Shown: one piece after another, positions 9,568-64,000 of the stretch
Layout of the letters: each line of letters starts with the position of its first letter
Numbering within the stretch: position 1 is the first letter of the stretch
Program-made: the position numbers and the translations under genes
The notes under the pieces: generated by a model
Told to the model about the DNA's origin: nothing
The model's database searches: none
What the model saw: the letters and a program-made list of their open reading frames with translations, nothing else
Assembly (NCBI GenBank): GCA_021927905.1
Contig: BLLK01000022.1
Location: forward strand, 1 to 64,000
DNA from: Chaetoceros tenuissimus
Lineage: Eukaryota; Bacillariophyta; Thalassiosirophyceae; Chaetocerotales; Chaetocerotaceae
Length of the DNA: 64,000 bases
Direction: 5' to 3'

Positions 9568-10288
9568 GCAAGTGCGCTTTATAAGTAAACGTTGGTAATT
9601 TGGCATGAGGTAACTTCTACTACGAAATACATGAATTAATCATCGTTGGTAATTTTCATTGGTTGGTAGTATCAATGAGGGGTTTTTGTTATAAAACTAA
9701 AAAGAGTTGTTTTGTATTACAATGAGTGGGTAGAAATCAATTTGGAATTCACAGAAGCGATGTAACATTACGACGTCGTTGCATTTACAAGCAAGGTAGA
9801 TATAGAGACTACCTTTTCTAAAAATCGCAAAACAAGTCATAAAAAAATCATGATATGATTGTCATAATCAAAGGAATTCCAACCGACTTTTCTATCAAAG
9901 TCTATGCTTGCAGAACAAGTTACTCGACAAGATGATTGATGTGTTGAAGCAGTCTTTGGACTACGTAGCATTATGTTTACCTTGGAAATTGAACTTAGCA
10001 GGAAAATAATTTTATTGAATTTCGAAAAAGACTTCATTTGGCAGATAAAACATCTGCTTGGTTCGTACAAACATAGGTTATTAGCAAGCTATGTTTCCAC
10101 ATTGAAGTTTTACGAGTATCTTCAGTTCAAGTAAGTACGTACGAATGGTGATTTGAGTGGAGATTACTTTTTTCTTTTGAATTTGTTGAAAACATTGAAC
10201 ATATTGTTTGGGTTGATGTGTTTGGATGATAATAGTAAAGATCCATTAGGCGTCCTAAATTTTCCACTCTAAAACTGTTTTGATAAAT
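9568..10288. other. intergenic upstream of PPR gene
   Basis: No gene is supported in this 721-bp spacer. From at least 9843 onward it belongs to the left arm of the large inverted duplication and reappears, inverted, at 63555-64000. A minus-strand open frame at 9837-10070 lacks coding character. Confidence 0.5.
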
Positions 10289-12283
10289 ATGAAGTTGTCG
10301 TCGGCAGCCGTTTGTGCATTTTTATTATTTACTACGAAAGGAGTGAATGGATTTGCAACTCCATTCACCTCTCTAGCACATAGATTATCAACTCAGCTTT
10401 CTGTTCAACAAGACGAAAACAATGTAGCATCGTACGATAATCCTCTCTCCAAAGCACATCCGAGAGACAAACCAAGAAAGAAGACAGGGAATCTATCGCC
10501 ATCGAAACGAAGACGCTTAGAAAAGCGACCTATGAAAAATGATAGATCAAACGCTATAGCTAAAGGAAACGACCCACTGTTGAGTCTCAACATAAATCTT
10601 GACTATCTTGCAAAATCGGGTAGAGCGATTCATGCAGAAGAACTCCTTGTCAAAATTGAGAAAATGTTTGAGTCTGGGTATTATGTTGTTCGTCCTGATA
10701 ATGTATCCTACAACTCTGTTTTGAATGCTTATGCTATGAATGAATCTGAAGAATATGATTCGGTAAAAGAAGTACAGAGATTATTGAAAAAAATGGAAAC
10801 ATTGAGTGAACAAGGTTTGAGTGCTGTTCAGCCCAACATTGTGACATTGAATACTGTGTGCTTGGCATTTGCCAAAAATAATCAACCCGAAAAAGCTCAT
10901 CAGTTGCTGAATGACATGGAAGAATTGTATCAAAGTGGTAAAAAGGACTTGGGACCTAATACTATTACATTCAATAGCGTCATTTGTGCCTATGCCAAGG
11001 CAAAAAAGCAACAAGAGGCGGAAGATTTGTTGAAGCGAATGATGACTATTTCCAGAGAGAACGACGGGGAGCGAGAAGATGAGATTAAAGCGGATACAAT
11101 TGCCTTCAATACTATTTTGCATGCATGGGCTGTCTCTAATATCAGAGGTGCGCCTTTAAGGGCGCAACAATTGTTGGATCATATGACTACTCTTTACAAT
11201 GCTGGTAACGAAGATGTTAAACCAGATGTATTCTCTTACACTGCTACTTTGAGTGCGTGGGCTGGAGCGACATACGATCCACAGGCTGCAGATAGAGCTT
11301 TAGAAATATTGCATCTGATGGAAAATCAATGTGCACTGGGAAATAAGGATGCATGTCCAAACGCTGTCACTTATACTGCTGTCATCAATTGTGTAGGTAA
11401 AAGCAAGAAACCAAATGCTGCATTGGAAGCGTATGAGATTCTTTTAAGTATGGAAAAGAGATGGCGAGAAGGTGAAGAAGATTTGCGACCTGATCTAATC
11501 ACATATTCAAGTGTTATTGATGCCTTTGCAAGAAGCGGAGAAGATTATGCCGGAGAAAAGGCTGTGGAGTTGTTAGACTACATGATTACACTAGCTGAGA
11601 GTGGATATCCTCAATACGGGCCAAATACTCAGACTTACTGTTCCGTCATTTCGGCATTAGGAAAAAGTAAGATGAGAGGAAACGCCGATGCAGCAAATCA
11701 ACTTCTCAATGATATGGAGAAAATGTATGAACTTGGTAATACAGACGTAGCACCAAATACAATAATATTCAATGCTGTGATTGATGCTTGGGCCAAGTCA
11801 TCTTTTAGATTCAAAGCATTGAGAGCGAGGGATCTTGTTGATAAAATGGAAACAGAATTTCAAGCTGGCAATATACACTACAAGCCAGACATTATTACAT
11901 ACAATTCGGTAATTAATGCTGGTGCAAGTGCCTTTGGAGATCAAACAGTCAAGTCCAATGCATTCCGAATTGCAATGGATGCTTTCAAACGTATCCAACT
12001 TACTGACGACTTGAAGGCAAACTCTGTCACGTACTCATTACTTTTGAAAGCTATACGGAAACTGATTAGTAAAGAAGAGCAGCGGCAAAAAATGAGTGGT
12101 AAGATTATGGAATATTGCATCAAAGAGGGTCTCTACAATAAACATATTGCTACTCAACTTGAGTTAACATGCGGATCAAAACGAAATTGTTTACAAATAC
12201 TCAAAGGCTTGGGTTATATGGGGACCGATCCAAAGGACTTGCGCAGCTTTCCCGAGTCTTGGAAATGTAATGCAGGTCGATGA
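10289..12283 (+). CDS. plastid-type pentatricopeptide repeat (PPR) protein
   Basis: 664 residues from the ATG at 10289; the in-frame TTG nine bases upstream is not a likely start. The N-terminus (MKLSSAAVCAFLLFTTKGVNG, then FATPF) is a signal peptide followed by Phe, the diatom plastid pattern. From ~residue 85 there are repeated PPR units recognisable by recurring motifs such as NVSYNSVLNAYA, NIVTLNTVCLAFAK, NTITFNSVICAYAK and DIITYNSVINAGA, each ending in an 'LL..ME..Y..GN' helix. PPR proteins bind organelle RNA to affect its processing, stability or translation. There is no DYW, SMR or other catalytic tail. It is convergent with MLH1, 83 bp away, across an (AT)16 tract. A broken second copy lies at 61578-63554. 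Confidence 0.9.
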   Translation: MKLSSAAVCAFLLFTTKGVNGFATPFTSLAHRLSTQLSVQQDENNVASYDNPLSKAHPRDKPRKKTGNLSPSKRRRLEKRPMKNDRSNAIAKGNDPLLSLNINLDYLAKSGRAIHAEELLVKIEKMFESGYYVVRPDNVSYNSVLNAYAMNESEEYDSVKEVQRLLKKMETLSEQGLSAVQPNIVTLNTVCLAFAKNNQPEKAHQLLNDMEELYQSGKKDLGPNTITFNSVICAYAKAKKQQEAEDLLKRMMTISRENDGEREDEIKADTIAFNTILHAWAVSNIRGAPLRAQQLLDHMTTLYNAGNEDVKPDVFSYTATLSAWAGATYDPQAADRALEILHLMENQCALGNKDACPNAVTYTAVINCVGKSKKPNAALEAYEILLSMEKRWREGEEDLRPDLITYSSVIDAFARSGEDYAGEKAVELLDYMITLAESGYPQYGPNTQTYCSVISALGKSKMRGNADAANQLLNDMEKMYELGNTDVAPNTIIFNAVIDAWAKSSFRFKALRARDLVDKMETEFQAGNIHYKPDIITYNSVINAGASAFGDQTVKSNAFRIAMDAFKRIQLTDDLKANSVTYSLLLKAIRKLISKEEQRQKMSGKIMEYCIKEGLYNKHIATQLELTCGSKRNCLQILKGLGYMGTDPKDLRSFPESWKCNAGR

Positions 12284-12322
12284 TAAAACTAGTTTTATAT
12301 CAAATCATTTTACTTTAAAAGT

Positions 12323-12325
<3 letters not shown>

Positions 12326-12357
<32 letters not shown>
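12326..12357. repeat. (AT)16 microsatellite, left-arm copy
   Basis: 32-nt pure AT tract between the PPR and MLH1 stop codons. The right-arm counterpart (61504-61535) has exactly the same length. Confidence 0.97.
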
Positions 12358-12360
<3 letters not shown>

Positions 12361-12366
12361 TGAATC

Positions 12367-15138
12367 CTAGCATCTTTCAAAAACTTTGTATAGTTTCGAA
12401 AGGACAGCAAGTTTGCAAAAAGTTCCATCACTTGCAAAATCTTTAGGAACAACAAGAAGAAAACGGAATGCTGGATACAGAGTATGCTGAATGTACTTCT
12501 TCTCAGATTCGCTGATCAATTCAAGCCTTGATTCGCCATGTTCTTGGTCAACAGTTACAACTTCTTCCTCGATTTGCACCTCTGCATAGTATCGTGATAG
12601 TTCCGTGCATACTCCCTCAAAGCATTTCATTTCATCTGTGTAATCAACTTCGGTAGCTAGATGAAGTAAGAATGCTGGTAGATGTTGTGGTGATGGAAAG
12701 TGACCATCTAATATCACTGGAAGACCCTTCAAATACAAGGTTTCATTGTCTTTATCCATCTCAAATTCAATCGAAAAGTATTCTTCAAGCATTGCAGATT
12801 TTTCAGCAAGGCAAACTGTTGCTTGTCTTGCAAGATCTATGTTAGTTTCATCTTGTGTAAGATCCTTCGACTCTTCCGAGTGCTCAATTTTTTGACTGAG
12901 AGAAACACTAGGCTTCAATGCTTCGTCCATCTCTAACGCTTTTTCAATAAGAGTTTGCACCTGGAGTCCATCTCCTTCAAGTGAAGCTTTTTGAAATCCA
13001 CCAAATCTCAGCAATGCCAGTTGATAAAATGTCTCTTTTGATAGTTCATATGGATTAACCATTATCAACTCAATACCAGATTGAATCAAACATCGCGAAC
13101 GACTAATACATCCTACAAACACAGAGTCCCGAAGTTTCGAAGTAAATTCATTATTTGCTCTGTTCTGAATGTCTTTCCTTAGATTCTGTATGGATGTGTA
13201 AGAACATTTTGTTGGTTTGATCTTTTTTGGACGCATAATATTTTGAGTAAAACCCGTCAATTTTGGCAATGAAGATGCCTGTTCAACCTGGCATCGGCAA
13301 ATTGATGCAAATGCCCCTGGAATGCTCATGTCAATCTTTTTGGAGCCCGATGCGAAAATACACTCAGGTGCATGTACAATGTCCTGTTTTGGTTTACTAG
13401 AATCTTGTTCAGTAATCACATCTGAAATTGGAGACGATTTTGACCCTGGTAAATCTTGGCTGCTAGATTTGGGCTGTGTTAATACAAGAAACGGTTCAAG
13501 CGCTCCTTGCTCCGCAGCAGCTGTTGTACGAATTAGATTTTTGGGATCATATACTTTTCTCTTCTTTGATGCAAGTTCCTCTGAGGTTGCTTTTCTCTTT
13601 GACACTTCCTCTTGAATACTCTTCTTTGATACATTGTCATTATCATTATCACTCTTTGAAGCAGGCTTGACAGAATTTTTAGTATTTGTTGTCAGGACTC
13701 TCGGTTCTTCTTCTTGTGAACTCAGCTTCATGGTTGTCGAATTTCCAACAAGTAGAGTCTGGGTATAAAATGTCCGGGAAGTCGAACTGTCCTGTAATAA
13801 CTCCCTAACAGACGAAGCCAACGCTTCACAAAGCTGATCTTCATGTAGAAATGCAACTTCTCTTTTTGTCGGATGAACATTCACATCGAGATGAGGACCT
13901 GGTAGCTCTAGGGAAAGGTAGACAAATGGCTTTGCCCCCTTTGGCAACATATCCATATAAACACTTTCAACTGCCTTTTTCAAAGCAGCAGATTCGACCA
14001 ATCTCCCATTGATAAATAATAAAAATGCAGAGGAAGCTTTTGGAACACAGTAACTACCATTAGTGATGAACCCTCGACATCGATATGCAAATGAAAACTG
14101 TCCCTGTCCCGATTGAGCCATTGTTTGTGATTCAGTCTCCTTTGCAATGTTTGCACCATAGTCATGCATATTTACAACTAGGCCATCCATGAGACTATTT
14201 CCTTCCGTGACTAGTTTCATCTCGCTCTTTTCAGAATTCAGAGTAGACTCTTCATTTTTCATGGCTTCAAGAGCAGACAATGTTACTTTCTCTACATCAC
14301 CTTTCGAACAAGAAATGGGTAATAATTCTTTAGCCATTTCACTTCCATAAACGTGTCCAATGACATCTCTAGTACTCTGTTCTTTTAAAGCTTTCAAATC
14401 AGTCTTCAGACTATCAGTAATCTCCTCCATCTTCTCCATTTCTGCAATTTGTTTCCTAAGTTTCTTAATCGTTGCAATCGAAGCTGTATTTAAATCTGTC
14501 TGCCCCCCTTTTTTACGACAAACAAATCCTATACCATGATCAGCTTTATGAACCGAATACCTCTGAACTACATTCAGAATCTTTTGATATTCTTCATTTT
14601 CCTTCCTAGTTCCTTCAAATGCCCGCTTCCTACTTGGTAAATTATAAAACAAATCTTGTAACTTGACACATGTTCCCTCTTTACCAGCAGAAGGTAAAGC
14701 TTTACTAGTCGGTTCTCCGTCACTGTAACTCATTTTGAAAGCACAACTAGTACCACCACTTGAGGGTAATTTTCGTTTACGACTGACAATACTCAATCTA
14801 CCAACCATACTCGCACTCGCTAATGCTTCACCTCTAAACCCAAAGGTTTGAATTTGTTTCAAATCATCCCATTGTTTCAATTTCGATGTGGCAAATCTTG
14901 TAGCTGCCAGGGGGAGATCTTGTGGATGAATTCCAAAGCCATCGTCAGAGACACTGAGTAATCTTAACCCTCCTCCTTGACATTGTACATCAATGTTGGT
15001 AGAGTCTGCATCAAGTGAGTTTTCAATGAGTTCTTTGATGACAGATGCAGGTCTTTGTACTACTTCTCCTGCTGCTATGCGATCAACTACTTTTTTAGGG
15101 AGTGCTTGAATACGTGGTTCCGTAGACTGCGAGCTCAT
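12367..15138 (-). CDS. MLH1: DNA mismatch repair protein MLH1, left copy
   Basis: 923 residues, single exon, ATG at 15138. The GHKL ATPase motifs of MutL proteins are all present: ELIENSLDA (~36-44, Mg2+/ATP Asn), SDDGFGI (~64-70) and TFGFRGEAL (~97-105), then the transducer motif VNVHPTKREVAFLHED. The last four residues are FERC, the conserved MLH1 C-terminus that supports heterodimer partner and endonuclease function. There is no PMS2-type DQHA metal site, as expected for MLH1. The interdomain linker (~460-660) is long and Ser/Lys-rich. The family role is the common subunit of MutL-alpha, beta and gamma heterodimers in post-replicative mismatch repair and meiosis. A second intact copy lies at 58723-61494. 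It shares a 638-bp divergent spacer with the START-domain gene. Confidence 0.96.
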   Translation of the reverse strand: MSSQSTEPRIQALPKKVVDRIAAGEVVQRPASVIKELIENSLDADSTNIDVQCQGGGLRLLSVSDDGFGIHPQDLPLAATRFATSKLKQWDDLKQIQTFGFRGEALASASMVGRLSIVSRKRKLPSSGGTSCAFKMSYSDGEPTSKALPSAGKEGTCVKLQDLFYNLPSRKRAFEGTRKENEEYQKILNVVQRYSVHKADHGIGFVCRKKGGQTDLNTASIATIKKLRKQIAEMEKMEEITDSLKTDLKALKEQSTRDVIGHVYGSEMAKELLPISCSKGDVEKVTLSALEAMKNEESTLNSEKSEMKLVTEGNSLMDGLVVNMHDYGANIAKETESQTMAQSGQGQFSFAYRCRGFITNGSYCVPKASSAFLLFINGRLVESAALKKAVESVYMDMLPKGAKPFVYLSLELPGPHLDVNVHPTKREVAFLHEDQLCEALASSVRELLQDSSTSRTFYTQTLLVGNSTTMKLSSQEEEPRVLTTNTKNSVKPASKSDNDNDNVSKKSIQEEVSKRKATSEELASKKRKVYDPKNLIRTTAAAEQGALEPFLVLTQPKSSSQDLPGSKSSPISDVITEQDSSKPKQDIVHAPECIFASGSKKIDMSIPGAFASICRCQVEQASSLPKLTGFTQNIMRPKKIKPTKCSYTSIQNLRKDIQNRANNEFTSKLRDSVFVGCISRSRCLIQSGIELIMVNPYELSKETFYQLALLRFGGFQKASLEGDGLQVQTLIEKALEMDEALKPSVSLSQKIEHSEESKDLTQDETNIDLARQATVCLAEKSAMLEEYFSIEFEMDKDNETLYLKGLPVILDGHFPSPQHLPAFLLHLATEVDYTDEMKCFEGVCTELSRYYAEVQIEEEVVTVDQEHGESRLELISESEKKYIQHTLYPAFRFLLVVPKDFASDGTFCKLAVLSKLYKVFERC

Positions 15139-15776
15139 TTGTAGAGAAAATATTGAGTGTAGAGATGACTCTTTTATGTATCAATTATGGCAGCTTAGTT
15201 TCATGTATGGTAACAATAATTACTCTGTTGGCCCTTCTGATGATGCCGGGTGCTTCGTTTCTGCTTTATTAGACACTCTAACTTAGGATTCATGTCATCC
15301 CTAGAAAGAGTGTCTTTTCTGGCTCGCTAATGACAGTCTCGTCGTGTCAAAGGATCACCAGCAGCTTTTTTTCCCAAGCAAATGAGAAACTATCAGGATG
15401 GCATTAGAAAGAATACCACCTCTTTCTTACATTGTAAACAAAAGTAAAGAGACTCTGGTGTATACGTAGCTTAGGCTTGTAGATCATATTCATATCCTAA
15501 CGCTGGACAGGGGTTGCAAACGTAGATTGTTGGAACAAACATCTGTGACTGACTTCTTTCGACTCCAACTTCTTGCTGCAGTCACACGTGAGAGTTTCTC
15601 GCATCGAAACAGAATCGAATCCATCTCAAGCATCGTGGAAATATACTGGAAATATTATAGAGTAAAGTGAAAAATACATGATACTGACAAACATATTCAT
15701 CTCCATCATCGTAATTTCAACAGCTCATTCTTAGAGATAACAATTTCAATAGACAACCAAACGCGAATAGATCAGA
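15139..15776. promoter_or_regulatory. divergent spacer MLH1 / START gene, left copy
   Basis: 638-bp gap between divergent genes, duplicated in inverted form at 58079-58722. The two copies differ by small indels (about +5 and +1 nt in the right copy) near the MLH1 side. No RNA gene seen. Confidence 0.5.
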
Positions 15777-17870
15777 ATGCCTCCAAGACTTGCAATGAAT
15801 ACTACAACACCAACATCAGCTACCAAACTCGTGCTTGAAAGTCCACAGTCATCCAATGACCTGGGAGACGATATTTCTTCAAGTAGCAACACATCAGCTT
15901 TATTCTATCTATCTACTAATATCAATTCAGAAGTAGATTCTGCATATCTCACAAGTGAAGAAGTTGGGTACGAACCTACAGATGATGAATTGGAAAAAGA
16001 TTCCAATAGCAAGAGACCCATGTCCAATCATAGGAACCAGGAGGGTGGGATATATTTAGATCCACTATTTGCGCAACTGTTTCATTTAGACTTTTTACCT
16101 TTTCAAAATGATACTAAGCGTTCATTGGGGTTCAGTGATTCATTGTTTGAATCCTATGACACTAATGAATTACTTGATTCTCATAGTTCAGATGACTTTT
16201 CCTATGATGATGATGACGACGACGATGGAGAGTACGAAGAGGACAACAATGGCATTGGGCAGTTTGTAGACCTTGGTATGGCATTACCTATGGATCGTAA
16301 ACGTAATAGAGGAATATTGAAGAAAAGACGAAATGGACCTTTACGAAGAATCAAACGTCAAATCAACAACTCTAAACATCGAAGAAAAGAACGCAAGCAC
16401 AATCGAAGACTTCAAAGAGGGAAATCTAAACATCGTGAAATCATTAATGATACATCTTGTCGTATAGAGAGTGAAATGAAAAAGGTTTCATACCAAAGAA
16501 AGAGGTTGGAGAATGTAAAGGCGAGCCTAAAATCTACAAAGAACAAGGCAAAGAATCTGATGAACGAGGCTAGACAGAGTGCACATCGAGTGTCCAAACT
16601 CTCCAAGACAATCATCGAACTTGAGTGTAAACTCGATATGTCCATGAGAGTATTGGAGATGGAGAATTCGAATATTGAACGGAACTTTGCAGAGCTTGCA
16701 CATTTAAATGCAGAAGAAGAAGCTTTACAACGAAAGTCTGACATGCTTGAGTCAAATTTAAAAAGACAATTGAATCAACTTGAGACAAACGTTGCATCCG
16801 CTTCTGCAAGTCAAATGAATGACTTGGTTTTGGACGATTCCATGGAAGTGCTTGAAACTCCAACTTTCAGACTAAGATCCAACACAGGAGATACTTTTGT
16901 TACTGCTGTCGAGGAAAAGGTGACTCCAGTGCCTATCCTTAGACAAAGAAGTCATAGTGACGGAAGAACAATGAAGAAGAAAAGAAGTGAGAGCATTCTT
17001 CGCAATCCGTCACCAGTGGTTGGTGGTGGTGGCGAAAGAGTATTAACAAAAAAGTCATCCTTCTTACGTGTACATGATTTGGAAATTGATGAAAACAAAC
17101 ATGCAGTTCCTATTCATGACGATAGTTACCACCATGTTCTTGATTCATTGATGAATATGTCTCTTAAATATGCAACAGATGAAGGGCCACGATGGACTCC
17201 GGATAGCAGTACTAGTAAAATACTAGCAAAGCGATCTCCTTCTGAGAAATGGCATTATGCAACAGACTCTGATATATTCGTGTGGCATGGTACCTTGGAA
17301 AAGAAAGGATACAAAAGCGACCTACCAATCATTAAGGCTCGAGCTATGGTTCAAACCTCTGCGCGTAATCTATTGGATCTTATCTTCGACAGTTCTAAAG
17401 TGAAACAATACAATAAGATGAGCCTTGGCCGTGAAGACAAAGACTTTTTGAAGAAAGGTATAGATACAAACGATGGTAAAATTCATGGTGAAGTAAAGAT
17501 AACCAGAAGCACCTCGAGTGTCCCTCTCATCAAAAAGAAAATTGAACTTGTGACGCTTATGCACGCAAAAGCTCTCACGGCCGAAGTAGACAATTTAGAT
17601 GGATATGTAATTAGTACGAGGTCTGTATGGGAGGACGAAGACAAGATTCCGTCTGAAAATGGGAGTAATGGAGTTGATGACGATCCGAATTATTGTCGTA
17701 GTGAATGTTTACTCGGTGTAAATCTGATTCGAGAAGTGGACGAGAACCGATGCGAAATAACAACAGTATCACACTTTTACTCTCCGATGGCGCCTTCATT
17801 TGGTGCAAAGTCATTCGGGATGAAAGCATCTGCGAACTTTCTCAAAGATATCCAAAGTCAATTCAAATAG
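15777..17870 (+). CDS. START-like lipid-binding domain protein with coiled coil
   Basis: 697 residues, single exon. The N-terminus is Ser/Asp-rich with an Asp run (SYDDDDDDDGEYEED, ~141-155), then a basic stretch (KRRNGPLRRIKRQI, ~183-200). Residues ~225-345 form a long coiled coil (repeated Lys/Glu/Leu heptads). The last ~200 residues look like a START/Bet v1-type fold: WHYATDSDIFVWHGTLEKK, RAMVQTSARNLLDLIFDSSK, a tract ending VISTRSVWED, then CEITTVSHFYSPMAPSFGAK and a C-terminal helix. START domains bind sterols or phospholipids; the ligand is unknown here. The duplication breakpoint (16217) falls inside the Asp-run codons, and a truncated copy is at 57623-58078. Domain call moderate, function inferred. 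Confidence 0.75.
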   Translation: MPPRLAMNTTTPTSATKLVLESPQSSNDLGDDISSSSNTSALFYLSTNINSEVDSAYLTSEEVGYEPTDDELEKDSNSKRPMSNHRNQEGGIYLDPLFAQLFHLDFLPFQNDTKRSLGFSDSLFESYDTNELLDSHSSDDFSYDDDDDDDGEYEEDNNGIGQFVDLGMALPMDRKRNRGILKKRRNGPLRRIKRQINNSKHRRKERKHNRRLQRGKSKHREIINDTSCRIESEMKKVSYQRKRLENVKASLKSTKNKAKNLMNEARQSAHRVSKLSKTIIELECKLDMSMRVLEMENSNIERNFAELAHLNAEEEALQRKSDMLESNLKRQLNQLETNVASASASQMNDLVLDDSMEVLETPTFRLRSNTGDTFVTAVEEKVTPVPILRQRSHSDGRTMKKKRSESILRNPSPVVGGGGERVLTKKSSFLRVHDLEIDENKHAVPIHDDSYHHVLDSLMNMSLKYATDEGPRWTPDSSTSKILAKRSPSEKWHYATDSDIFVWHGTLEKKGYKSDLPIIKARAMVQTSARNLLDLIFDSSKVKQYNKMSLGREDKDFLKKGIDTNDGKIHGEVKITRSTSSVPLIKKKIELVTLMHAKALTAEVDNLDGYVISTRSVWEDEDKIPSENGSNGVDDDPNYCRSECLLGVNLIREVDENRCEITTVSHFYSPMAPSFGAKSFGMKASANFLKDIQSQFK

Positions 17871-17943
17871 TTATAAGAAGTTCTTTACTTTTGTAGGACT
17901 TGATCTATGTAATGTCTACAGTAACAAAATCGCATACTCATAC

Positions 17944-24100: not shown

Positions 24101-27100
24101 GTCACTGAAAAAGATATTACTTCAAGGGAATTGGAATCCAATTTCTTGTTTCGAGTCTAAAACAAGTCTCTTGTCAAGCCAACTATCTTCAAAAGATGAT
24201 GATTTCGTTTTAAAACATCTTGAAGAATTACAAGCAAAAGTGAAAGCGTTAGAGAGTATGAATCGTTCAACACTGGAAGGCCTATATAGCGATGTAGAGA
24301 ACGAGAGGACACAGTTTGAGACAAAAACGAAAATAAAAAGAAAATGTGATGAAAGCATTTGCGCTGAATTTCAGGCTGAAGTACAGCGAAAGATTGATAT
24401 ACAAAAAGCTATTGAGGCTCAACAAGAAGAAGATGATAACGCCGTATGTGATATTTGTGGAGATGGTGAGTCTTCTGGAGAAAATAGAATTATTTTCTGT
24501 GACTCGTGCGATGTCTCTGTCCATCAACACTGTTATGGCGTTGATATAGTTCCAAAAGGGGATTATTTTTGTCGTGCTTGCGAATTTTTCAAAAAGCATA
24601 AATCTCCATCTGTACCAGCGGATAAAGGAGACGAGAATCCGGGTCATCAACAAACTTCTTCACAAATCAAATATGCACAAAATATTTGCATACCAGTTGC
24701 AAATGGAAGTGATAGAATTCGTGCTCAGCCTTCTATTGTCTGTGAACTTTGTCCCAAGAAAAGTGGTGCTTTTGTTCAAACTCAAACGGATGAAGATATC
24801 ACCAAAATCACGGCAGCTTCGTCTAGATGGACGCATTTCCTCTGTGCAAAGTGGCAAGGGCTCAATATTGTCGAAAATCTATACATTGACAATTTGCCTG
24901 TATTCATGATAGAAAATGTTCAACCAATCAAAGATCATTTTAGATTGAGTGATACACGCTGTTATTTGTGCAAAGGCATTCGCGGCACATACAATAAATG
25001 CAGACATGAAAGCTGTGATCGTTGGATGCATGTTACTTGTGCGAGATCCTCTGGAATGTGTGAAGTCATTCATGGCGATGACCACATAGGACCTGTTGAT
25101 TCGCCCAACGTTTGGACACTTTGTTGTCCAGACCACTCTAGTTTCCCAGAAGATTATGTTCCTCCGACAAATAAAGTTCCTCTAGAAGAATTAGTTGCGT
25201 TGGCCAAAACGTATCCTGTCGAACCAAAACCTAAACCACCTCCACCACCACCGAAGGCATTTGGAAAGATGAGTGGAAAGGAAAGAAAGCAGAGGTTGAA
25301 AGATCCTGAATATGAAATGGAATTCTTCGAAATAATGGAAAAGAAGAATATTGGAATGAGATGTGAATTCTGTAACCTCACTGAAGAAATGGGAGAGATG
25401 GTGCGGTGTTCCAAGTGCTCCGCACAGCATCATAAATTTTGTTTTGAAGGCCCGAGTGAATGGAAATCATCTGGAAGTGGACATAGGGCTGTCTACACAT
25501 GTAATAGTTGTGCGTACAAGGACGAGAAAAAGGATGAGGAAGATTTTGAACATCCATCGTGTCACATGTGCTTTTCAAAAGAGGGAGCTTTGGCGAAATG
25601 CACTGCAAAACCAATCAATCTCAAGAGATGGAAGAGTAACATGTCTAGCTTCAAGAAATCACTCTTTGGTAAACAAATATGGTGTCACCCTGTGTGTGGA
25701 ACGTAAGTGGAATTGAGTATGAAATATCTCATTTATCATATCACTCAAACTTGCTAATCGTTGTTTTTCTTTGTAGTTGGCATCCGAAAGTGAATTTTGG
25801 ACATGATGGGACATATGAATGCTCAAATATTATAATGGCAAACGGAATGGAGCATGTTGAAAAGAATCACAGGTGTCATTTGTGTGGGATTAGAAAGGGA
25901 TTGAAGATTCAGTGTTTGTATCCTCAGTCTGGAAAGTCCAAGCAATGCCAGCGTAAATTCCACGCGACATGTGCACGACAAGCGGGGCTTGAAGTTTCAC
26001 ATGAAAATCCAAACATCGACTATGCACTCATGTGTTTCAATCATGGTCGTTGCGACTTTTCATTCCGGGCTTTACTAGAGGATATGATTGAATTTGAAAA
26101 GAAGAGGGCTGGAAATGAACTCAGTAGATCTAATAGTGTTATGTCATTAGATTGTGCTGCTCAGATTTTCAACGCTGGAATAAGAGTTTTGAATTCTCTT
26201 GGATGGGCATGGAAATGGGCTTCATGGTGGGTAAATTATGGTGATGTTTGGGAGCCTCTTCTAGAGGAAGGGCAAAAAGAAGCAAATATGACTAAGGAGC
26301 AGCTAAAAATTGTAGACAGTACTCCAATTTCACGTCGAGAAGATGCTCGTAAATGTAGACTTGCAGCGTTCGGTGCTGCCCTTCGAAATAGAGATTTTGA
26401 CAAAGAGGAAGGAGATGATCAAGATACACTTCGATATGCAATTCGAGCTATCTTCAATACTCCAAGCCTCGTGGGTCCGCTTTCAAAGGCAGAAATAGCT
26501 TTTTATGTGGATTGGCTAAGTCGAGTATATCGTTCAAAGTCACCGCGCTTAGGATTAGGAGATAAAAAGATTCCTGTATATGAAGTATGGGATGATGAAA
26601 AACCTGAGGAAAAATATCCGAATCCGAATTTCTTTGATGATAAATCTCCGAAATTTATGCTCGGCTCTAGGCCTTTGCCCGGCAAATCTTGCAGACCAAA
26701 TCACATTTTCGAAATTGTTGAAGAAAAGGATGATTTCTTTGTTAATGAAAAAGATATCGAGCCTCTCGTGGAAACTTGGTCATCTAATTCTTCAAAGTCG
26801 AAGAGTACGTCATCTAATTCTTCAAAGTCGAAGAGTACGAAGAAAAAGAAGTCTCCAAAACCAAAGAAAGAAGCTTTGAAATTGGGCGACACATTGGATG
26901 CTCCCTCTTCGAAGAAGAGGCCTGGTCGTAAACCAGGTCGAAAGCCAAAGAAGTTGATAGAGCCTGACATAGATGTTTCCTTATCTTCAGTTTCAACAAA
27001 GGTATCGAAAAAGCGTAAAACAATGAACTCTGTAGTAGCCTCTTTTGATATAGAAGAGATTTCATTGAAACAAGAAAAAAGTCCGAAAAAAGGAAGACCA

Positions 27101-42053: not shown

Positions 42054-42087
42054 AAATGGTGGAATCTATGTATTATAATGTGAAATC

Positions 42088-46100: not shown

Positions 46101-47889
46101 GAGCACTCATCCATTGCTGTTGAAAGTAAGGTGGAGGAAGCTAAGAGAATCGTATCCTTGTTGTCTAAAAATACAGATGAAATCGATAATATTGTCGTAG
46201 GACTAAGTGGCGGCTTCGTACCACCAAAACCAGGTGGAGATTTATTGAGAGATGGAACATCAGTATTACCTACGGGCAGGTAAGAAATACTCTTGAATCT
46301 TTACATTCTGAAGAACTACATACTTACGACTTATTGTAGAAATATTCATGCTCTTGATCCGTATAGAATGCCTAGTGAAGGAGCTTGGATACGGGGCCAG
46401 AAAATTGTAGAGGAAACAATCAAGCAACACTTAGAACAGAATGAAGGTGCATTTCCTGAAACAAGTGAGTTAATTAAGATTCTGTGTAGATGTGAAAAAC
46501 ATGCATAGTTCCGTTTTACTCACAAAGTGAAATTTCTTACCTGTAGTTGCATGCACCTTATGGGGACTCGACACTATCAAATCCAAGGGTTAGTAATCTT
46601 CTGCAGATCTTAACAGGCGACATGTTCTTTTGAATACTAATTATCACTGTCTTTTCATTCTGTGAATAGGTGATTCCATTGCAATAGTCTTATCATTGGT
46701 AGGGGCAAGACCTGTCAAAGAGGGAACAGGCAGAGTTGTTAGATTTGACCCTATCCCTCTCAGTGAATTAAACAGACCTAGAATTGACTGTCTCGCAACT
46801 CTTAGTGGAATATTTCGGGATTCATTTGGAAATGTTGTCGATATGTTAGATGACATGTTCGAGCGCCTTGCTGAAGCAGATGAGCCAGTGGATATGAATT
46901 TCATAAAAAAACATGCCCTTGAACTCAAGACGGATGGCGTCGAGCGTCCAGCAGCCCGCTTATTCTCTAATCCTCCGGTAAGAGTTTTGATTATTTCATT
47001 TGACCTAATTGTTTCAACTCATCATATTACTCAATTAATCATATTGAATACCATTCAGGGAGACTACGGTAGCATGGTAAATGAAGTAGTAAATACAGGT
47101 GATTGGGAAGATTCCAAGGCGTTGGGAGAGACATGGGAAAAGCGAAATATGTTCTCTTATGGGAGAAATGAAAACAATGGTAACGGAATCAGTGGTACAG
47201 CAAGACCCCAAGTTTTAAATAAACTTTTAAACACAACTGAAAGAATAGTCCAGGAAATTGACAGTGTGGAATATGGATTAACTGATATCAATGAATATTA
47301 TGCAAACACTGGAGCTCTGAAGACAGCTGCCGAGAACAAAAAGTCCGAGGGGCATAGAAAGAAGGTTTCAGTATCAATAGTAGAAGCCTTTAACAATGCA
47401 CCTAATCCATCAGAACAAAATATTCCCGTAAGAGAGTTAGAAGACGTACTTCGGCTTGAATACCGCTCAAAGCTTTTAAACCCAAAATGGAGAGACGCAA
47501 TGGTTGACCAGGGATCTGGTGGTGCATACGAAGTGTCTCAAAGAATGACCGCGATGATAGGATGGGGAGCCACTGCAAAAGTAGACAAAGTAAGTAGACA
47601 TTCTATTGTACTGATTTGATTTGATGATTTCAAGTGTTGGAAATATCCATTTCTTATGATTCCAAAGTTTGTTTTTGATCAAGCAGCAGAGAGATACGCA
47701 TTGGACGAGGCAGTAGCAAGAAAACTACAGCAAAATAATCCAGAAGCGTTCAAGAATGTTGTACGGAGGTTGCTAGAGGCCAACGGACGTGGAATGTGGG
47801 AAACAGACGAGGAAACACTGCAGAAACTCCGTGATTTGTATTCGGATGCAGATGACATGATTGAGCAGCTTGATTCATTATATAATTGA
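43152..47889 (+). CDS. chlH: magnesium chelatase subunit H, plastid
   Basis: Eight exons: 43152-43505, 43581-45234, 45316-46279, 46340-46464, 46547-46588, 46670-46977, 47059-47589 and 47668-47889; all introns are GT-AG and the frame closes at 1,399 residues. The N-terminus MIKCVILCLLLVGNCIS followed by FQTC is a signal peptide with Phe at the cleavage site (plastid). Family landmarks: GLEGDPMRLLFERDLTPHPQ across intron 2, FIHLGMHGTEEWLPGQ (~710), YVYAANNPSESILAKRRGYG, PYGRAGLYLELANLKEL, TGRNIHALDPYRMP across intron 3, and VGARPVKEGTGRV. Subunit H binds protoporphyrin IX and, with ChlI and ChlD, inserts Mg2+ at the first committed step of chlorophyll synthesis. The HGTEEWLPG form is closer to purple-bacterial BchH than to the HGSLEFMPGK form of cyanobacterial ChlH. 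Exon 5 is only 42 nt. Confidence 0.95.
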
Positions 47890-50370: not shown

Positions 50371-50428
50371 AGCCTCCTTGAAATAAAAGCAATCTGCCTA
50401 GCCTCCTTGAAATAAAAGCAATCTGCCT
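50371..50428. repeat. 29-bp perfect tandem duplication
   Basis: A 29-nt unit starting AGCCTCCTTGAAATAAAAGC occurs twice in tandem (50371-50399 and 50400-50428) with no visible difference, 140 bp upstream of the gene at 50567. Confidence 0.95.
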
Positions 50429-50566
50429 TGAAAAATGAGACCTCTCCGGCAAAGGTGCAACAATGATACTCATTATTTCATTCACTACATCAGTAACTAT
50501 TACACACAAGACATCGCAAGATAACTCTAGCAACCCGACAAAGAAACATTTTTTGTACATGAGAAT

Positions 50567-53089: not shown

Positions 53090-53160
53090 TATATATTAGA
53101 TTATCAATTGTAAAAATTTAGTAATGTTACATGTACATAACGTTTGGTCTAAATCTCACA

Positions 53161-56171: not shown

Positions 56172-57653
56172 ATGAGTTACAATACTGTGGAGCTTCGGGA
56201 AGAGGGAGCGAAGGAGCCTCAGTCTCATGCTGAATCTTCAAGCACAGATACTAATGACGAGACTAGCAGAAATCAGCCATTGCATGTTAATCTCAGCATT
56301 CAAGGTGGCAACTGTGAAACACAAGAGAAACAAGCATTGGGTCAATGTCGTGATTGTGAGAATCAATTGAAAAGAGTCACTGGGGTCGCTGAGTTACAGG
56401 AATCGGCTAGAGACGAAAAGCGACAGCGACACTCTTTGACTGATGCAAAAAATACTCTAAACACCACGGACTCTCTAAAGAAATCGAAAGAGTTTCAATT
56501 CGATTATTATGCTTCGACGCATCCAACAAATCAAGAAGGAAAAGCGTCAAGTAGCGGGCATGAAACTATGATTCAGTGTCCAGAGTCGCCGTCTTCAAAA
56601 TACCTAGGGGTTGAAGATGATACAAGTAGTAGTAGCAGCAGTGACGACGACTTAGCAAGAATAAAACGTTTACAATTTGAAATAAAAACGAAAAGACAGA
56701 GTTTTGGTGTCAATAATTCTGATGATAAAGCCGTACCATCGGTGATCACGGCAAAGAAAGAAGATATTCCAATTCCATCTGTTACTCGGAAACGCCATGA
56801 AAAGATAGAAATTGACCTAACCAAGGACGACGATGATGACGATATAAAAGATGGCAATACCCAATGCGAAATTGAAAAGAAATGCGAAGGCACGACCAGT
56901 AGCCATCAAGTCACGAGCCAAGCACCTGTAAAAGATCGATCTAATTGGATGTTCAAACCTCCATTGTATAATGAACCGACGTCCAAAATCTATGGTGGCG
57001 TTCTTTGGCACTGGTGTTCAAAGTGCGAGAATGGCATGGGAAAATGGACTGATCACAATGCTTGTAAACATGGTGAAAAGAATAACGTATTTCAATTTAC
57101 ATTTTCAAAACGCAAAGCTAGAGTTTCATCCCCGACAGATCTATCTACTTCAACGGTAATGGAAAACCTTCCGTTGAATTTTGAAGAATCCAATGCTACG
57201 AATGATCAGCCTAAGACAAAACAAGAGGATACTAGTTATGAACAATTACTAGCGAGGAAAAAGAGAAGAGAAGAAGTCATTGATTTACTTTCTGATTCTG
57301 ATGAAACAGGAAACGAAGATGAATTTGACATTACTACAATTGGAAATGAGCAAAAAGCCAACGATTCTGGTCAAGAGAATTATGAAGAAGTGGAAAAGCA
57401 ACTTTCATTTGATGGAGTTATGCCTTCCACGCATTCTACTCAAGAGCTGGAAACCAACATGGACAAGATTGAATTGGAGAAACCCGCTTGTCCTGATAGT
57501 GTCATAGAACCCACACATTCTACTCAAGAGGTACAAACAAACGATTCTGACGAAGAAAGTAATGACTTAGGCAAGACTGAAATGGAGAAACCCGCTTCTC
57601 CTGATAGTGTCATAGAATCCACTCATTCTACTCGACGGTCATCATCATCATAG
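56172..57653 (+). pseudogene. acidic Ser-rich protein truncated at duplication breakpoint
   Basis: Open frame of 493 residues, ATG at 56172. Most of it is disordered and Ser/Asp/Glu/Lys-rich. A small zinc-binding candidate is WHWCSKCENGMGKWTDHNA followed by CKH (~277-298; C-x2-C with downstream His). From ~415 there are three copies of a unit ending THSTQE (EKPACPDSVIEPTHSTQE type). The third copy stops at THST, and the last codons (RRSSSS, stop) are read from the end of the right duplication arm, which begins at 57638. The natural C-terminus is therefore probably lost and the stop is supplied by inverted DNA. It may still be expressed as a shortened protein. Family unknown. Confidence 0.6.
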
Positions 57654-58078
57654 GAAAAGTCATCTGAACTATGAGAATCAAGTAATTCATTAGTGTCATA
57701 GGATTCAAACAATGAATCACTGAACCCCAATGAACGCTTAGTATCATTTTGAAAAGGTAAAAAGTCTAAATGAAACAGTTGCGCAAATAGTGGATCTAAA
57801 TATATCCCACCCTCCTGGTTCCTATGATTGGACATGGGTCTCTTGCTATTGGAATCTTTTTCCAATTCATCATCTGTAGGTTCGTACCCAACTTCTTCAC
57901 TTGTGAGATATGCAGAATCTACTTCTGAATTGATATTAGTAGATAGATAGAATAAAGCTGATGTGTTGCTACTTGAAGAAATATCGTCTCCCAGGTCATT
58001 GGATGACTGTGGACTTTCAAGCACGAGTTTGGTAGCTGATGTTGGTGTTGTAGTATTCATTGCAAGTCTTGGAGGCAT
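57623..58078 (-). pseudogene. truncated START-domain protein gene, right copy
   Basis: The first ~147 residues match the gene at 15777 without visible amino-acid change, up to SYDDDD. Then the sequence leaves the duplication and ends within a few codons (RRVE, stop). The coiled coil and the START-like domain are missing, so it cannot do the job of the full copy. Its tail overlaps the tail of the truncated plus-strand gene at 56172 by 31 bp. The promoter region is retained and shared with MLH1 copy 2. Confidence 0.9.
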
Positions 58079-58722
58079 TCTGATCTATTCGCGTTTGGTT
58101 GTCTATTGAAATTGTTATCTCTAAGAATGAGCTGTTGAAATTACGATGATGGAGATGAATATGTTTGTCAGTATCATGTATTTTTCACTTCACTCTATAA
58201 TATTTCCAGTATATTTCCACGATGCTTGAGATGGATTCGATTCTGTTTCGATGCGAGAAACTCTCACGTGTGACTGCAGCAAGAAGTTGGAGTCGAAAGA
58301 AGTCAGTCACAGATGTTTGTTCCAACAATCTACGTTTGCAACCCCTGTCCAGCGTTAGGATATGAATATGATCTACAAGCCTAAGCTACGTATACACCAG
58401 AGTCTCTTTACTTTTGTTTACAATGTAAGAAAGAGGTGGTATTCTTTCTAATGCCATCCTGATAGTTTCTCATTTGCTTGGGAAAAAAAGCTGCTGGTGA
58501 TCCTTTGACACGACGAGACTGTCATTAGCGAGCCAGTAAAAGACACTCTTTCTAAGGATGACATGAATCCTAAGTTAGAGTGTCTAATAAAGCAGAAACG
58601 AAGCACCCGGCATCATCAGAAGGGCCAACAGAGTAACTTTACTAGTGTTACCATACATGAAACTAAGCTGCCATAATTGATACATAAAAGAGTCATCTCT
58701 ACACTCAATATTTTCTCTACAA
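58079..58722. promoter_or_regulatory. divergent spacer MLH1 / START gene, right copy
   Basis: Inverted copy of 15139-15776, six bases longer. The extra bases lie near 58545 (one A) and near 58635-58660 (about five, with local substitutions). It contains the whole presumed promoter of MLH1 copy 2. Confidence 0.6.
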
Positions 58723-61494
58723 ATGAGCTCGCAGTCTACGGAACCACGTATTCAAGCACTCCCTAAAAAAGTAGTTGATCGTATAGCAGCAGGAGAAGTA
58801 GTACAAAGACCTGCATCTGTCATCAAAGAACTCATTGAAAACTCACTGGATGCAGACTCTACCAACATTGATGTACAATGTCAAGGAGGAGGGTTAAGAT
58901 TACTCAGTGTCTCTGACGATGGCTTTGGAATTCATCCACAAGATCTCTCCCTGGCAGCTACAAGATTCGCCACATCAAAATTGAAACAATGGGATGATTT
59001 GAAACAAATTCAAACCTTTGGGTTTAGAGGTGAAGCATTAGCGAGTGCGAGTATGGTTGGTAGATTGAGTATTGTCAGTCGTAAACGAAAATTACCCTCA
59101 AGTGGTGGTACTAGTTGTGCTTTCAAAATGAGTTACAGTGACGGAGAACCGACTAGTAAAGCTTTACCTTCTGCTGGTAAAGAGGGAACATGTGTCAAGT
59201 TACAAGATTTGTTTTATAATTTACCAAGTAGGAAACGGGCATTTGAAGGAACTAGGAAGGAAAATGAAGAATATCAAAAGATTCTGAATGTAGTTCAGAG
59301 GTATTCGGTTCATAAAGCTGATCATGGTGTAGGGTTTGTTTGTCGTAAAAAAGGGGGGCAGACAGATTTAAATACAGCTTCGATTGCAACGATTAAGAAA
59401 CTTAGGAAACAAATTGCAGAAATGGAAAAGATGGAGGAGATTACTGATAGTCTGAAGGCTGATTTGAAAGCTTTGAAAGAACAGAGTACTAGAGATGTCA
59501 TTGGACACGTTTATGGAAGTGAAATGGCTAAAGAATTATTACCCATTTCTTGTTCGAAAGGTGATGTAGAGAAAGTAACATTATCTGCTCTTGAAGCCAT
59601 GAAAAATGAAGAGTCTACTCTGAATTCTGAAAAGAGCGAGATGAAACTAGTCACGGAAGGAAATAGTCTCATGGATGGCCTAGTTGTAAATATGCATGAC
59701 TATGGTGCAAACATTGCAAAGGAGACTGAATCACAAACAATGGCTCAATCGGGACAGGGACAGTTTTCATTTGCATATCGATGTCGAGGGTTCATCACTA
59801 ATGGTAGTTACTGTGTTCCAAAAGCTTCCTCTGCATTTTTATTATTTATCAATGGGAGATTGGTCGAATCTACTGCTTTGAAAAAGGCAGTTGAAAGTGT
59901 TTATATGGATATGTTGCCAAAGGGGGCAAAGCCATTTGTCTACCTTTCCCTAGAGCTACCAGGTCCTCATCTCGATGTGAATGTTCATCCGACAAAAAGA
60001 GAAGTTGCATTTCTACATGAAGATCAGCTTTGTGAAGCGTTGGCTTCGTCTGTTAGGGAGTTATTACAGGACAGTTCGACTTCCCGGACATTTTATACCC
60101 AGACTCTACTTGTTGGAAATTCGACAACCATGAAGCTGAGTTCACAAGAAGAAGAACCGAGAGTCCTGACAACAAATACTAAAAATTCTGTCAAGCCTGC
60201 TTCAAAGAGTGATAATGACAATGACAATGTATCAAAGAAGAATAATCAAGAGGAAGTGTCAAAGAGAAAAGCAACCTCAGAGGAACTTTCATCAAAAAAG
60301 CGAAAGGTATATGATCCCAAAAATCTAATTCGTACAACAGCTGCTGCGGAGCAAGGAGCGCTTGAACCGTTTCTTGTATTAACACAACCCAAATCTAGCA
60401 GCCAAGATTTACCAGGGTCAAATTCGTCTCCAACTTCAGATGAGATTACTGAACAAGGTTCTAGTAAACCAAAACAGGACATTGTACATGCACCTGAGTG
60501 TATTTTTGCATCGGGCTCCAAAAAGATTGACATGAGCATTCCAGGGGCATTTGCATCAATTTGCCGATGTCAGGTTGAACAGGCATCTTCACTGCCAAAA
60601 TTGACGGGTTTTACTCAAAATATTATGCGTCCAAAAAAGATCAAACCAACAAAATGTTCTTACACATCCATACAGAATCTGAGGAAAGACATTCAGAACA
60701 GAGCAAATAATGAATTTACTTCGAAACTTCGGAACTCTGTGTTTGTAGGATGTATTAGTCGTTCGCGATGTTTGATTCAATCTGGTATTGAGTTGATAAT
60801 GATTAATCCATATGAACTATCAAAAGAGACATTTTATCAACTGGCATTGCTGAGATTTGGTGGATTTCAAAAAGCTTCACTTGAAGGAGATGGACTCCAG
60901 GTGCAAACTCTTATTGAAAAAGCGTTAGAGATGGACGAAGCATTGAAGCCTAGTCTTTCTCTCAGTCAAAAAATTGAGCACTCGGAAGAGTCGAAGGATC
61001 TTACACAAGATGAAACTAACATAGATCTTGCAAGACAAGCAACAGTTTGCCTTGCTGAAAAATCTGCAATGCTTGAAGAATACTTTTCGATTGAATTTGA
61101 GATGGATAAAGACAATGAAACCTTGTATTTGAAGGGTCTTCCAGTGATATTAGATGGTCACTTTCCATCACCACAACATCTACCAGCATTCTTACTTCAT
61201 CTAGCTACCGAAGTTGATTACACAGATGAAATGAAATGCTTTGAGGGAGTATGCACGGAACTATCACGATACTATGCAGAGGTGCAAATCGAGGAAGAAG
61301 TTGTAACTGTTGACCAAGAACATGGCGAATCAAGGCTTGAATTGATCAGCGAATCTGAGAAGAAGTACATTCAGCATACTCTGTATCCAGCATTCCGTTT
61401 TCTTCTTGTTGTTCCTAAAGATTTTGCAAGTGATGGAACTTTTTGCAAACTTGCTGTCCTTTCGAAACTATACAAAGTTTTTGAAAGATGCTAG
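58723..61494 (+). CDS. MLH1: DNA mismatch repair protein MLH1, right copy
   Basis: 923 residues, same length as the left copy and without interruption; all ATPase motifs and the terminal FERC are intact. I count 14 amino-acid differences from the left copy: P76S near the N-terminus, a few conservative changes in the folded parts (such as I/V, T/A, A/T, V/I, V/L), and seven in the linker between residues 507 and 579 (S507N, I508N, A523S, K567N, I571T, V574E, D579G). None touches a catalytic motif, so the copy should be functional if expressed. The clustering means either relaxed constraint in the linker or an older haplotype tract. Confidence 0.95.
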   Translation: MSSQSTEPRIQALPKKVVDRIAAGEVVQRPASVIKELIENSLDADSTNIDVQCQGGGLRLLSVSDDGFGIHPQDLSLAATRFATSKLKQWDDLKQIQTFGFRGEALASASMVGRLSIVSRKRKLPSSGGTSCAFKMSYSDGEPTSKALPSAGKEGTCVKLQDLFYNLPSRKRAFEGTRKENEEYQKILNVVQRYSVHKADHGVGFVCRKKGGQTDLNTASIATIKKLRKQIAEMEKMEEITDSLKADLKALKEQSTRDVIGHVYGSEMAKELLPISCSKGDVEKVTLSALEAMKNEESTLNSEKSEMKLVTEGNSLMDGLVVNMHDYGANIAKETESQTMAQSGQGQFSFAYRCRGFITNGSYCVPKASSAFLLFINGRLVESTALKKAVESVYMDMLPKGAKPFVYLSLELPGPHLDVNVHPTKREVAFLHEDQLCEALASSVRELLQDSSTSRTFYTQTLLVGNSTTMKLSSQEEEPRVLTTNTKNSVKPASKSDNDNDNVSKKNNQEEVSKRKATSEELSSKKRKVYDPKNLIRTTAAAEQGALEPFLVLTQPKSSSQDLPGSNSSPTSDEITEQGSSKPKQDIVHAPECIFASGSKKIDMSIPGAFASICRCQVEQASSLPKLTGFTQNIMRPKKIKPTKCSYTSIQNLRKDIQNRANNEFTSKLRNSVFVGCISRSRCLIQSGIELIMINPYELSKETFYQLALLRFGGFQKASLEGDGLQVQTLIEKALEMDEALKPSLSLSQKIEHSEESKDLTQDETNIDLARQATVCLAEKSAMLEEYFSIEFEMDKDNETLYLKGLPVILDGHFPSPQHLPAFLLHLATEVDYTDEMKCFEGVCTELSRYYAEVQIEEEVVTVDQEHGESRLELISESEKKYIQHTLYPAFRFLLVVPKDFASDGTFCKLAVLSKLYKVFERC

Positions 61495-61500
61495 GATTCA

Positions 61501-61503
<3 letters not shown>

Positions 61504-61535
<32 letters not shown>
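61504..61535. repeat. (AT)16 microsatellite, right-arm copy
   Basis: 32-nt AT tract, the same length as its left-arm counterpart at 12326-12357. Confidence 0.97.
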
Positions 61536-61538
<3 letters not shown>

Positions 61539-61577
61539 ACTTTTAAAGTAAAATGATTTGATATAAAACTAGTTTTA

Positions 61578-63554
61578 TCATCGACCTGCATTACATTTCC
61601 AAGACTCGGGAAAGCTGCGCAAGTCCTTTGGATCGGTCCCCATATAACCCAAGCCTTTGAGTATTTGTAAACAATTTCGTTTTGATCCGCATGTTAACTC
61701 AAGTTGAGTAGCAATATGTTTATTGTAGAGACCCTCTTTGATGCAATATTCCATAATCTTACCACTCGTGCAATTCGGAATGCATTGGACTTGACTGTTT
61801 GATCTCCAAAGGCACTTGCACCAGCATTAATTACCGAATTGTATGTAATAATGTCTGGCTTGTAGTGTATATTGCCAGCTTGAAATTCTGTTTCCATTTT
61901 ATCAACAAGATCCCTCGCTCTCAATGCTTTGAATCTAAAAGATGACTTGGCCCAAGCATCAATCACAGCATTTGCCAGCTTGAAATTCTGTTTCCATTTT
62001 ATCAACAAGATCCCTCGCTCTCAATGCTTTGAATCTAAAAGATGACTTGGCCCAAGCATCAATCACAGCATTGAATATTATTGTATTTGGTGCTACGTCT
62101 GTATTACCAAGTTCATACATTTTCTCCATATCATTGAGAAGTTGATTTGCTGCATCGGCGTTTCCTCTCATCTTACTTTTTCCTAATGCCGAAATGACGG
62201 AACAGTAAGTCTGAGTATTTGGCCCGTATTGAGGATATCCACTCTCAGCTAGTGTAATCATGTAGTCTAACAACTCCACAGCCTTTTCTCCGGCATAATC
62301 TTCTCCGCTTCTTGCAAAGGCATCAATAACACTTGAATATGTGATTAGATCAGGTCGCAAATCTTCTTCACCTTCTCGCCATCTCTTTTCCATACTTAAA
62401 AGAATCTCATACGCTTCCAATGCAGCATTTGGTTTCTTGCTTTTACCTACACAATTGATGACAGCAGTATAAGTGACAGCGTTTGGACATGCATCCTTAT
62501 TTCCCAGTGCACATTGATTTTCCATCAGATGCAATATTTCTAAAGCTCTATCTGCAGCCTGTGGATCGTATGTCGCTCCAGCCCAGGCACTCAAAGTAGC
62601 AGTGTAAGAGAATACATCTGGTTTAACATCTTCGTTACCAGCATTGTAAAGAGTAGTCATATGATCCAACAATTGTTGCGCCCTTAAAGGCGCACCTCTG
62701 ATATTAGAGACAGCCCATGCATGCAAAATAGTATTGAAGGCAATTGTATCCGCTTTAATCTCATCTTCTCGCTCCCCGTCGTTCTCTCTGGAAATAGTCA
62801 TCATTCGCTTCAACAAATCTTCCGCCTCTTGTTGCTTTTTTGCCTTGGCATAGGCACAAATGACGCTATTGAATGTAATAGTATTAGGTCCCAAGTCCTT
62901 TTTACCACTTTGATACAATTCTTCCATGTCATTCAGCAACTGATGAGCTTTTTCGGGTTGATTATTTTTGGCAAATGCCAAGCACACAGTATTCAATGTC
63001 ACAATGTTGGGCTGAACAGCACTCAAACCTTGTTCACTCAATGTTTCCATTTTTTTCAACAATCTCTGTACTTCTTTTACCGAATCATATTCTTCAGATT
63101 CATTCATAGCATAAGCATTCAAAACAGAGTTGTAGGATACATTATCAGGACGAACAACATAATACCCAGACTCAAACATTTTCTCAATTTTGACAAGGAG
63201 TTCTTCTGCATGAATCGCTCTACCCGATTTTGCAAGATAGTCAAGATTTATGTTGAGACTCAACAGTGGGTCGTTTCCTTTAGCTATAGCGTTTGATCTA
63301 TCATTTTTCATAGGTCGCTTTTCTAAGCGTCTTCGTTTCGATGGCGATAGATTCCCTGTCTTCTTTCTTGGTTTGTCTCTCGGATGTGCTTTGGAGAGAG
63401 GATTATCGTACGATGCTACATTGTTTTCGTCTTGTTGAACAGAAAGCTGAGTTGATAATCTATGTGCTAGAGAGGTGAATGGAGTTGCAAATCCATTCAC
63501 TCCTTTCGTAGTAAATAATAAAAATGCACAAACGGCTGCCGACGACAACTTCAT
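61578..63554 (-). pseudogene. broken PPR gene, right copy
   Basis: Second copy of the PPR gene at 10289. The first ~520 codons match the left copy. A 100-bp tandem duplication (61872-61971 and 61972-62071) then shifts the frame, so translation from the ATG at 63554 ends after 531 residues (FQAGKCCD, stop) instead of 664. Further on, the equivalent of left positions 11975-12093 (119 bp) is missing, replaced by a single base (near 61769). The N-terminal plastid signal and most PPR units survive, so a shortened protein is possible, but the last repeats are lost. Confidence 0.9.
61872..62071. repeat. 100-bp tandem duplication
   Basis: Two adjacent 100-bp copies (61872-61971, 61972-62071) within the right PPR copy. 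The left arm has the unit only once (equivalent near 11770-11870), so it arose after the arms separated. The length is not a multiple of three. Confidence 0.95.
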
Positions 63555-64000
63555 ATTTATCAAAACAGTTTTAGAGTGGAAAATTAAGGACGCCTAATGG
63601 ATCTTTACTATTATCATCCAAACACATCAACCCAAACAATATGTTCAATGTTTTCAACAAATTCAAAAGAAAAAAGTAATCTCCACTCAAATCACCATTC
63701 GTACGTACTTACTTGAACTGAAGATACTCGTAAAACTTCAATGTGGAAACATAGCTTGCTAATAACCTATGTTTGTACGAACCAAGCAGATGTTTTATCT
63801 GCCAAATGAAGTCTTTTTCGAAATTCAATAAAATTATTTTCCTGCTAAGTTCAATTTCCAAGGTAAACATAATGCTACGTAGTCCAAAGACTGCTTCAAC
63901 ACATCAATCATCTTGTCGAGTAACTTGTTCTGCAAGCATAGACTTTGATAGAAAAGTCGGTTGGAATTCCTTTGATTATGACAATCATATCATGATTTTT
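63555..64000. other. PPR upstream region, right copy, cut by window end
   Basis: Inverted copy of 9843-10288. Matches continue to the last base of the window, so the outer end of the duplication is not seen. Confidence 0.9.

Follow-up and report, generated by a model that had tools for sequence, protein, structure and literature searches.

Two inverted arms around a 41-kb segment

The first 64,000 nucleotides of contig BLLK01000022.1 from the diatom Chaetoceros tenuissimus (forward strand; the window hereafter) carry two long, nearly identical arms in opposite orientation, each with a gene for a PPR protein, a gene for MLH1 and the start of a further open reading frame (ORF). The window has a G+C content of 38.8% and consists only of A, C, G and T, with no N. 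In a self-BLAST of the window, the arms appear as three inverted matches: 12094–16217 against 61767–57638 (minus strand; 99.03% identity over 4130 columns), 9843–11871 against 64000–61972 (minus strand; 99.85% over 2029 columns) and 11771–11974 against 61972–61769 (100% over 204 columns). The E-values of 0.0, 0.0 and 7e-105, respectively, rule out chance similarity.

9843–16217, forward strand: left arm, given out to the last position with a match in the window, with native-looking context at its inner end (self-BLAST, pairwise alignment)
16218–57637, no strand: segment of 41,420 bp between the arms, with ChlH-like, Xaa-Pro aminopeptidase-like, TRM5/TYW2-like and PHD-finger genes
57638–64000, reverse strand: right arm, the inverted copy, which runs off the end of the window (self-BLAST, pairwise alignment)

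A sequence-only reading of the window had described an inverted duplication of 9843–16217 at 57638–64000 with 41 kb between the arms, and self-BLAST and pairwise alignment agree with it on both points; the coordinate sums that it gave for paired positions (73855, 73861 and 73843) also match the pairwise alignment. The inner end is a real boundary, as the alignment ends beyond 16217 and before 57638. Position 9843, by contrast, does not hold as a repeat boundary: it is the mere mirror image of the window end at 64000. The outer ends of both arms lie outside the window, that of the right arm is not reached within its 6.36 kb, and the arms are therefore at least 6.36 kb long. The copies exceed 1 kb and 90% identity, the usual thresholds for a segmental duplication.

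Divergence between the arms is clustered over MLH1

The arms differ by 39 substitutions in 6257 aligned bases (0.62%), 29 of them transitions; this count leaves out all insertions and deletions (indels) and one letter at the edge of a deletion (12093). Pairwise alignment places 35 of the 39 in 12906–15318, a stretch of 2.4 kb over MLH1, with 3 in the outer 2945 aligned bases and 1 in the innermost 0.9 kb. The densest 600-bp stretch holds 18 substitutions, compared with a mean of 8.3 in random draws (none of 10,000 draws was as high), and the longest substitution-free run is 1531 bases, compared with a random mean of 668 (p = 0.0008). Such a mosaic seems to suit two alleles, or else a duplication for which the other allele served as template; even, low divergence would instead suit a fresh duplication of one haplotype.

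The MLH1 genes themselves are open in both arms.

12367–15138, reverse strand: MLH1, left copy, 923 amino acids (aa), open (Pfam Mlh1_C, 223.1 bits; matches to MLH1 structures in the PDB)
58723–61494, forward strand: MLH1, right copy, 923 aa, open (Pfam and PDB structure matches)

Between them are 32 differences, 18 synonymous and 14 nonsynonymous, where 9.7 synonymous differences are expected under the observed transition bias (p = 0.002); synonymous-site divergence is about 3%, and dN/dS is about 0.22 or about 0.34, depending on which of two site counts is used. Given the synonymous excess, both copies look constrained, which would suit alleles. Decay of the right copy is unsupported: besides the excess and its open 923-aa frame, it stays within about 3 bits of the left copy, in either direction, on the Pfam models and structures matched by both (left and right, respectively: Mlh1_C, 223.1 and 223.7 bits; HATPase_c, 30.3 and 29.1; top solved structure, 283.3 and 285.8; PMS2 structure 1h7s, 124.3 and 122.6). 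The arms thus show both mosaic divergence and a synonymous excess, although true duplicates derived from two haplotypes would look alike. According to PMC4647503, diatom meiotic genes are single copies except for the RAD51 family, across five genomes and one transcriptome.

The remaining differences are structural and include two that break the PPR gene of the right arm.

10289–12283, forward strand: PPR protein gene, left copy, 664 aa, open (Pfam PPR families)
11975–12093, forward strand: left-arm stretch absent from the right arm at 61768/61769, with one other base in its place (pairwise alignment)
61872–62072, reverse strand: two perfect tandem copies of a 100-bp unit in the right arm; the left arm has one, from 11771 (Tandem Repeats Finder, TRF)
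61959–63554, reverse strand: PPR gene, right copy, which ends at 531 aa, just past the start of the second 100-bp unit

The right-arm gene is interrupted by the 100-bp duplication, whose join shares 1 bp, together with a net deletion of 118 bp (119 bp lost, 1 nt added). Small indels of 5 nt and 1 nt lie near 15215 and 15318. The sequence-only reading had explained the shifts in the coordinate sums by such events, and this stands for the two small indels, the duplication and the right-arm deletion; the deletion is 118 bp net, not the 119 that it gave. Runs of (AT)16 at 12326 and 61504 have the same length in both arms (TRF). Perfect two-copy tandem duplications also occur at 26779–26839 (30 bp) and 50371–50428 (29 bp; TRF), so short perfect tandem duplications are not restricted to the right arm. 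At its N terminus, the PPR protein has a hydrophobic stretch followed by NGFATPF, which resembles the plastid-targeting motif of algae with red-derived plastids.

The inner junction looks end-joined

At the inner end of the arms, the left boundary lies within one ORF and the right boundary abuts the repeats near the end of another.

15777–17870, forward strand: 697-aa ORF with no Pfam family, open throughout, spanning the left inner boundary
56172–57653, forward strand: 493-aa ORF; repeat units of CATTCTACTC lie close to its end, at 57432, 57516 and 57624
57623–58078, reverse strand: 151-aa ORF, the right-arm copy of the first 441 bp of the 697-aa ORF, cut at the junction after codon 147
57634–57637, forward strand: GACG, the 4 bp that follow the last base shared with a repeat unit and precede the arm (the three CATTCTACTC units compared with each other and with the left arm)

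The three CATTCTACTC units are spaced by 84 and 108 bp; the first two are followed by AAGAG, and the third by GACG and then the right arm. Because the third unit runs into the arm, the 493-aa gene is probably truncated by the right junction, and GACG may be either filler or native sequence of the truncated gene. The arm thus starts at 57638, at most 4 bp past a repeat unit, and the 697-aa ORF runs unbroken across its left counterpart, 16217. By-eye comparison of the junction with the left arm revealed no evident in-register shared homology at the join; a run of GAT/GAC codons lies on the arm side of the boundary and carries on into the left flank. The junction lacks any N or evident shared homology and has 4 bp of filler at most, features more in keeping with a breakpoint closed by end joining than with a mis-join mediated by a repeat.

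Several other origins of the join were considered. For repeat-mediated collapse, no shared repeat was seen; the 62-bp repeat that self-BLAST detected at 57464–57525 and 57572–57633 is confined to one side of the junction. A missed-adapter palindrome is ruled out because the arms stand 41 kb apart and have dissimilar inner flanks. We think a chimera of whole-genome amplification unlikely, on the ground that the copies in such a chimera are expected to be identical. The junction stretch had no match among plasmids. A mobile element at the junction finds no support: of the 42 ORFs listed (those with an ATG start and 120 aa or more), 32 were searched with Pfam, and no transposase or reverse-transcriptase family appeared in them; the 10 others, all shorter than 200 aa, and exons lacking an ATG were outside this search.

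A heterozygous inversion as the tentative explanation

The sequence-only reading had offered two explanations, a real duplication or two haplotypes wrongly joined. The sequence leans mildly to haplotypes, given the mosaic divergence and the constraint on MLH1, but the marks that usually betray a simple assembly error are absent from the join. A third explanation, absent from that reading, accounts for both the allele-like arms and the clean join: the arms may be two alleles, with the contig crossing the 41 kb from one haplotype into the other by way of the breakpoint of a heterozygous inversion. We favour it tentatively, at somewhat less than an even chance, as it covers these two observations together and neither earlier explanation does so alone.

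The contig reads X1 – M – reversed X2, where X1 and X2 are the arms and M is the 41-kb middle. In a heterozygous diploid, X1 and X2 would be two alleles of one locus, and one haplotype would carry M inverted, with breakpoints at about 16217 and 57633–57637. That haplotype would join X2 to the far end of M, which, read backwards, is the right junction at 57638. If an assembler followed the standard haplotype into M and the junction of the inverted haplotype out of it, the result would be a gap-free contig with two allelic arms and a physical, end-joined junction, and there would be no duplication in the cell. We count towards this inversion the clustered divergence, the constraint on both MLH1 copies and the absence of an outer end of the right arm within 6.36 kb. 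We also count the position of the breaks: one gene contains the left break and a second gene probably contains the right one, the pattern of a two-break inversion, and the arm begins at the breakpoint. The junction, which has no N, shows no evident shared repeat and includes no more than 4 bp of filler, counts as well, and so does the single-copy state reported for diatom meiotic genes outside the RAD51 family (PMC4647503). High heterozygosity has been described in the diatom Phaeodactylum tricornutum (PMC10833087).

Several observations weigh against the inversion. Just 3 substitutions separate the arms in their outer 2 kb, and alleles so nearly identical might well have been merged by the assembler. 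Only the right arm has the 100-bp duplication and the 118-bp net deletion that break the PPR gene, damage that a true duplicate, being redundant, might carry, and equal (AT)16 runs would agree with recent copying of that part. No reciprocal junction of the inversion lies within the 64-kb window, gene conversion between true duplicates can also give mosaic divergence, and the argument is drawn from the sequence of the contig, with diploidy presumed.

A true inverted segmental duplication is a serious competitor, which we regard as nearly as likely as the inversion. It would have arisen from a break in the right-hand gene whose repair joined the broken end to 16217 on the homologue or sister and then copied outward. 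The outcome would be a second, inverted PPR gene and MLH1 together with part of the 697-aa gene, and small scars along the tract that was copied. Replication-based repair leaves scars of such a kind, and the scar cluster is confined to the right arm, which would be the derived one because its copy of the 697-aa gene is cut. The gap-free sequence, the end-joining-like junction and the equal (AT)16 runs fit as well. Harder to reconcile are the roughly 3% synonymous divergence of MLH1 beside near-identical flanks, which is unlike one recent copy of a single haplotype unless the donor was the other allele or conversion followed, the right MLH1 without decay, and a copy whose outer end is not seen in the window. 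A plain joining artefact seems unlikely to us; here the cell would have no inversion, and the second haplotype's copy of the locus would have been attached to the 57.6-kb end through a chimeric clone or read or by an error in gap filling. It would explain the allele-like arms, and misassembly of pieces could account for the 100-bp duplication adjoining the deletion; unmerged alleles, moreover, gave rise to false duplications that formed large parts of older vertebrate assemblies, 4 to 16% of three of them (PMC9516828). Yet there is no N in the 64 kb, no repeat was seen at the junction to explain a collapse, and no error is evident elsewhere in the window, where close inspection was limited to the ChlH-like and CW-finger genes. 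Much the least probable is that X1 – M – reversed X2 physically exists, a crossover within a heterozygous inversion having produced a duplication-deficiency chromosome that a diploid alga has retained; were it true, this chromosome would supply another MLH1, divergent and open, along with a broken PPR gene copy.

The structure belongs to known kinds of feature. It resembles a heterozygous simple inversion, with two end-joined breaks, in that its junction links the reversed left flank with the far end of the middle and lies in one gene and probably also in another; it differs in that the window lacks the reciprocal junction and the left flank stands at both ends of the contig. With an inverted segmental duplication it shares two inverted, near-identical arms of more than 6 kb with 41 kb between them, whereas the outer end of the copy is not seen here and the divergence is mosaic rather than even. 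The third likeness is to false heterotype duplication, in which alleles are assembled as paralogues: as in the cases covered by PMC9516828, there are two gene-bearing copies on one contig, and their difference looks allele-like. Such false duplications are described there as most often, but not always, separated by gaps, with some connected by sequence without read support; the arms here are inverted and meet the middle at a clean junction with no gap.

If the arms are alleles, the assembly over-counts MLH1 and its neighbours, and the contig conceals structural heterozygosity. If the duplication is real, there are two divergent MLH1 mismatch-repair genes, and the inverted repeats could flip 41 kb that include the ChlH-like gene. 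Under either reading, the locus is a clear test case for telling allele from paralogue. No title among the literature matches listed, most of them judged by title alone, announces such a structure.

Other content of the window

The sequence suggests a nuclear contig of a photosynthetic stramenopile, perhaps a diatom, and the ChlH-like gene in itself points to a photosynthetic eukaryote.

43665–47619, forward strand: magnesium-chelatase H-like (ChlH/BchH) gene, at least three exon-like ORFs

PHD-finger, Xaa-Pro aminopeptidase-like and TRM5/TYW2-like genes were also noted. Searches for RNA genes found no tRNA in the window and no Rfam family at its gathering score. Among the collections of virus and prokaryote sequences, viral_contigs yielded no confirmed relative of the 697-aa protein, MLH1, the PPR protein, the 493-aa protein or one ChlH exon, and genome_contigs none of MLH1, as expected of such collections. 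A CW-zinc-finger gene at 3690–5273 (reverse strand) consists of three same-frame ORFs of 140, 205 and 140 aa with two in-frame stops between them, and each stop ends a stretch whose translation resembles a short in-frame intron. A perfect array of the hexamer ACTTAC (9.5 copies; TRF) occupies 7370–7426, about 190 bp upstream of a 649-aa ORF at 7618. The G+C content of another diatom, Pleurosigma pacificum, is given as 38.6% in PMC12803021, about the same as that of the window. An 851-aa ORF at 39498–42053 (forward strand) contains a DUF6625 domain (73.8 bits).
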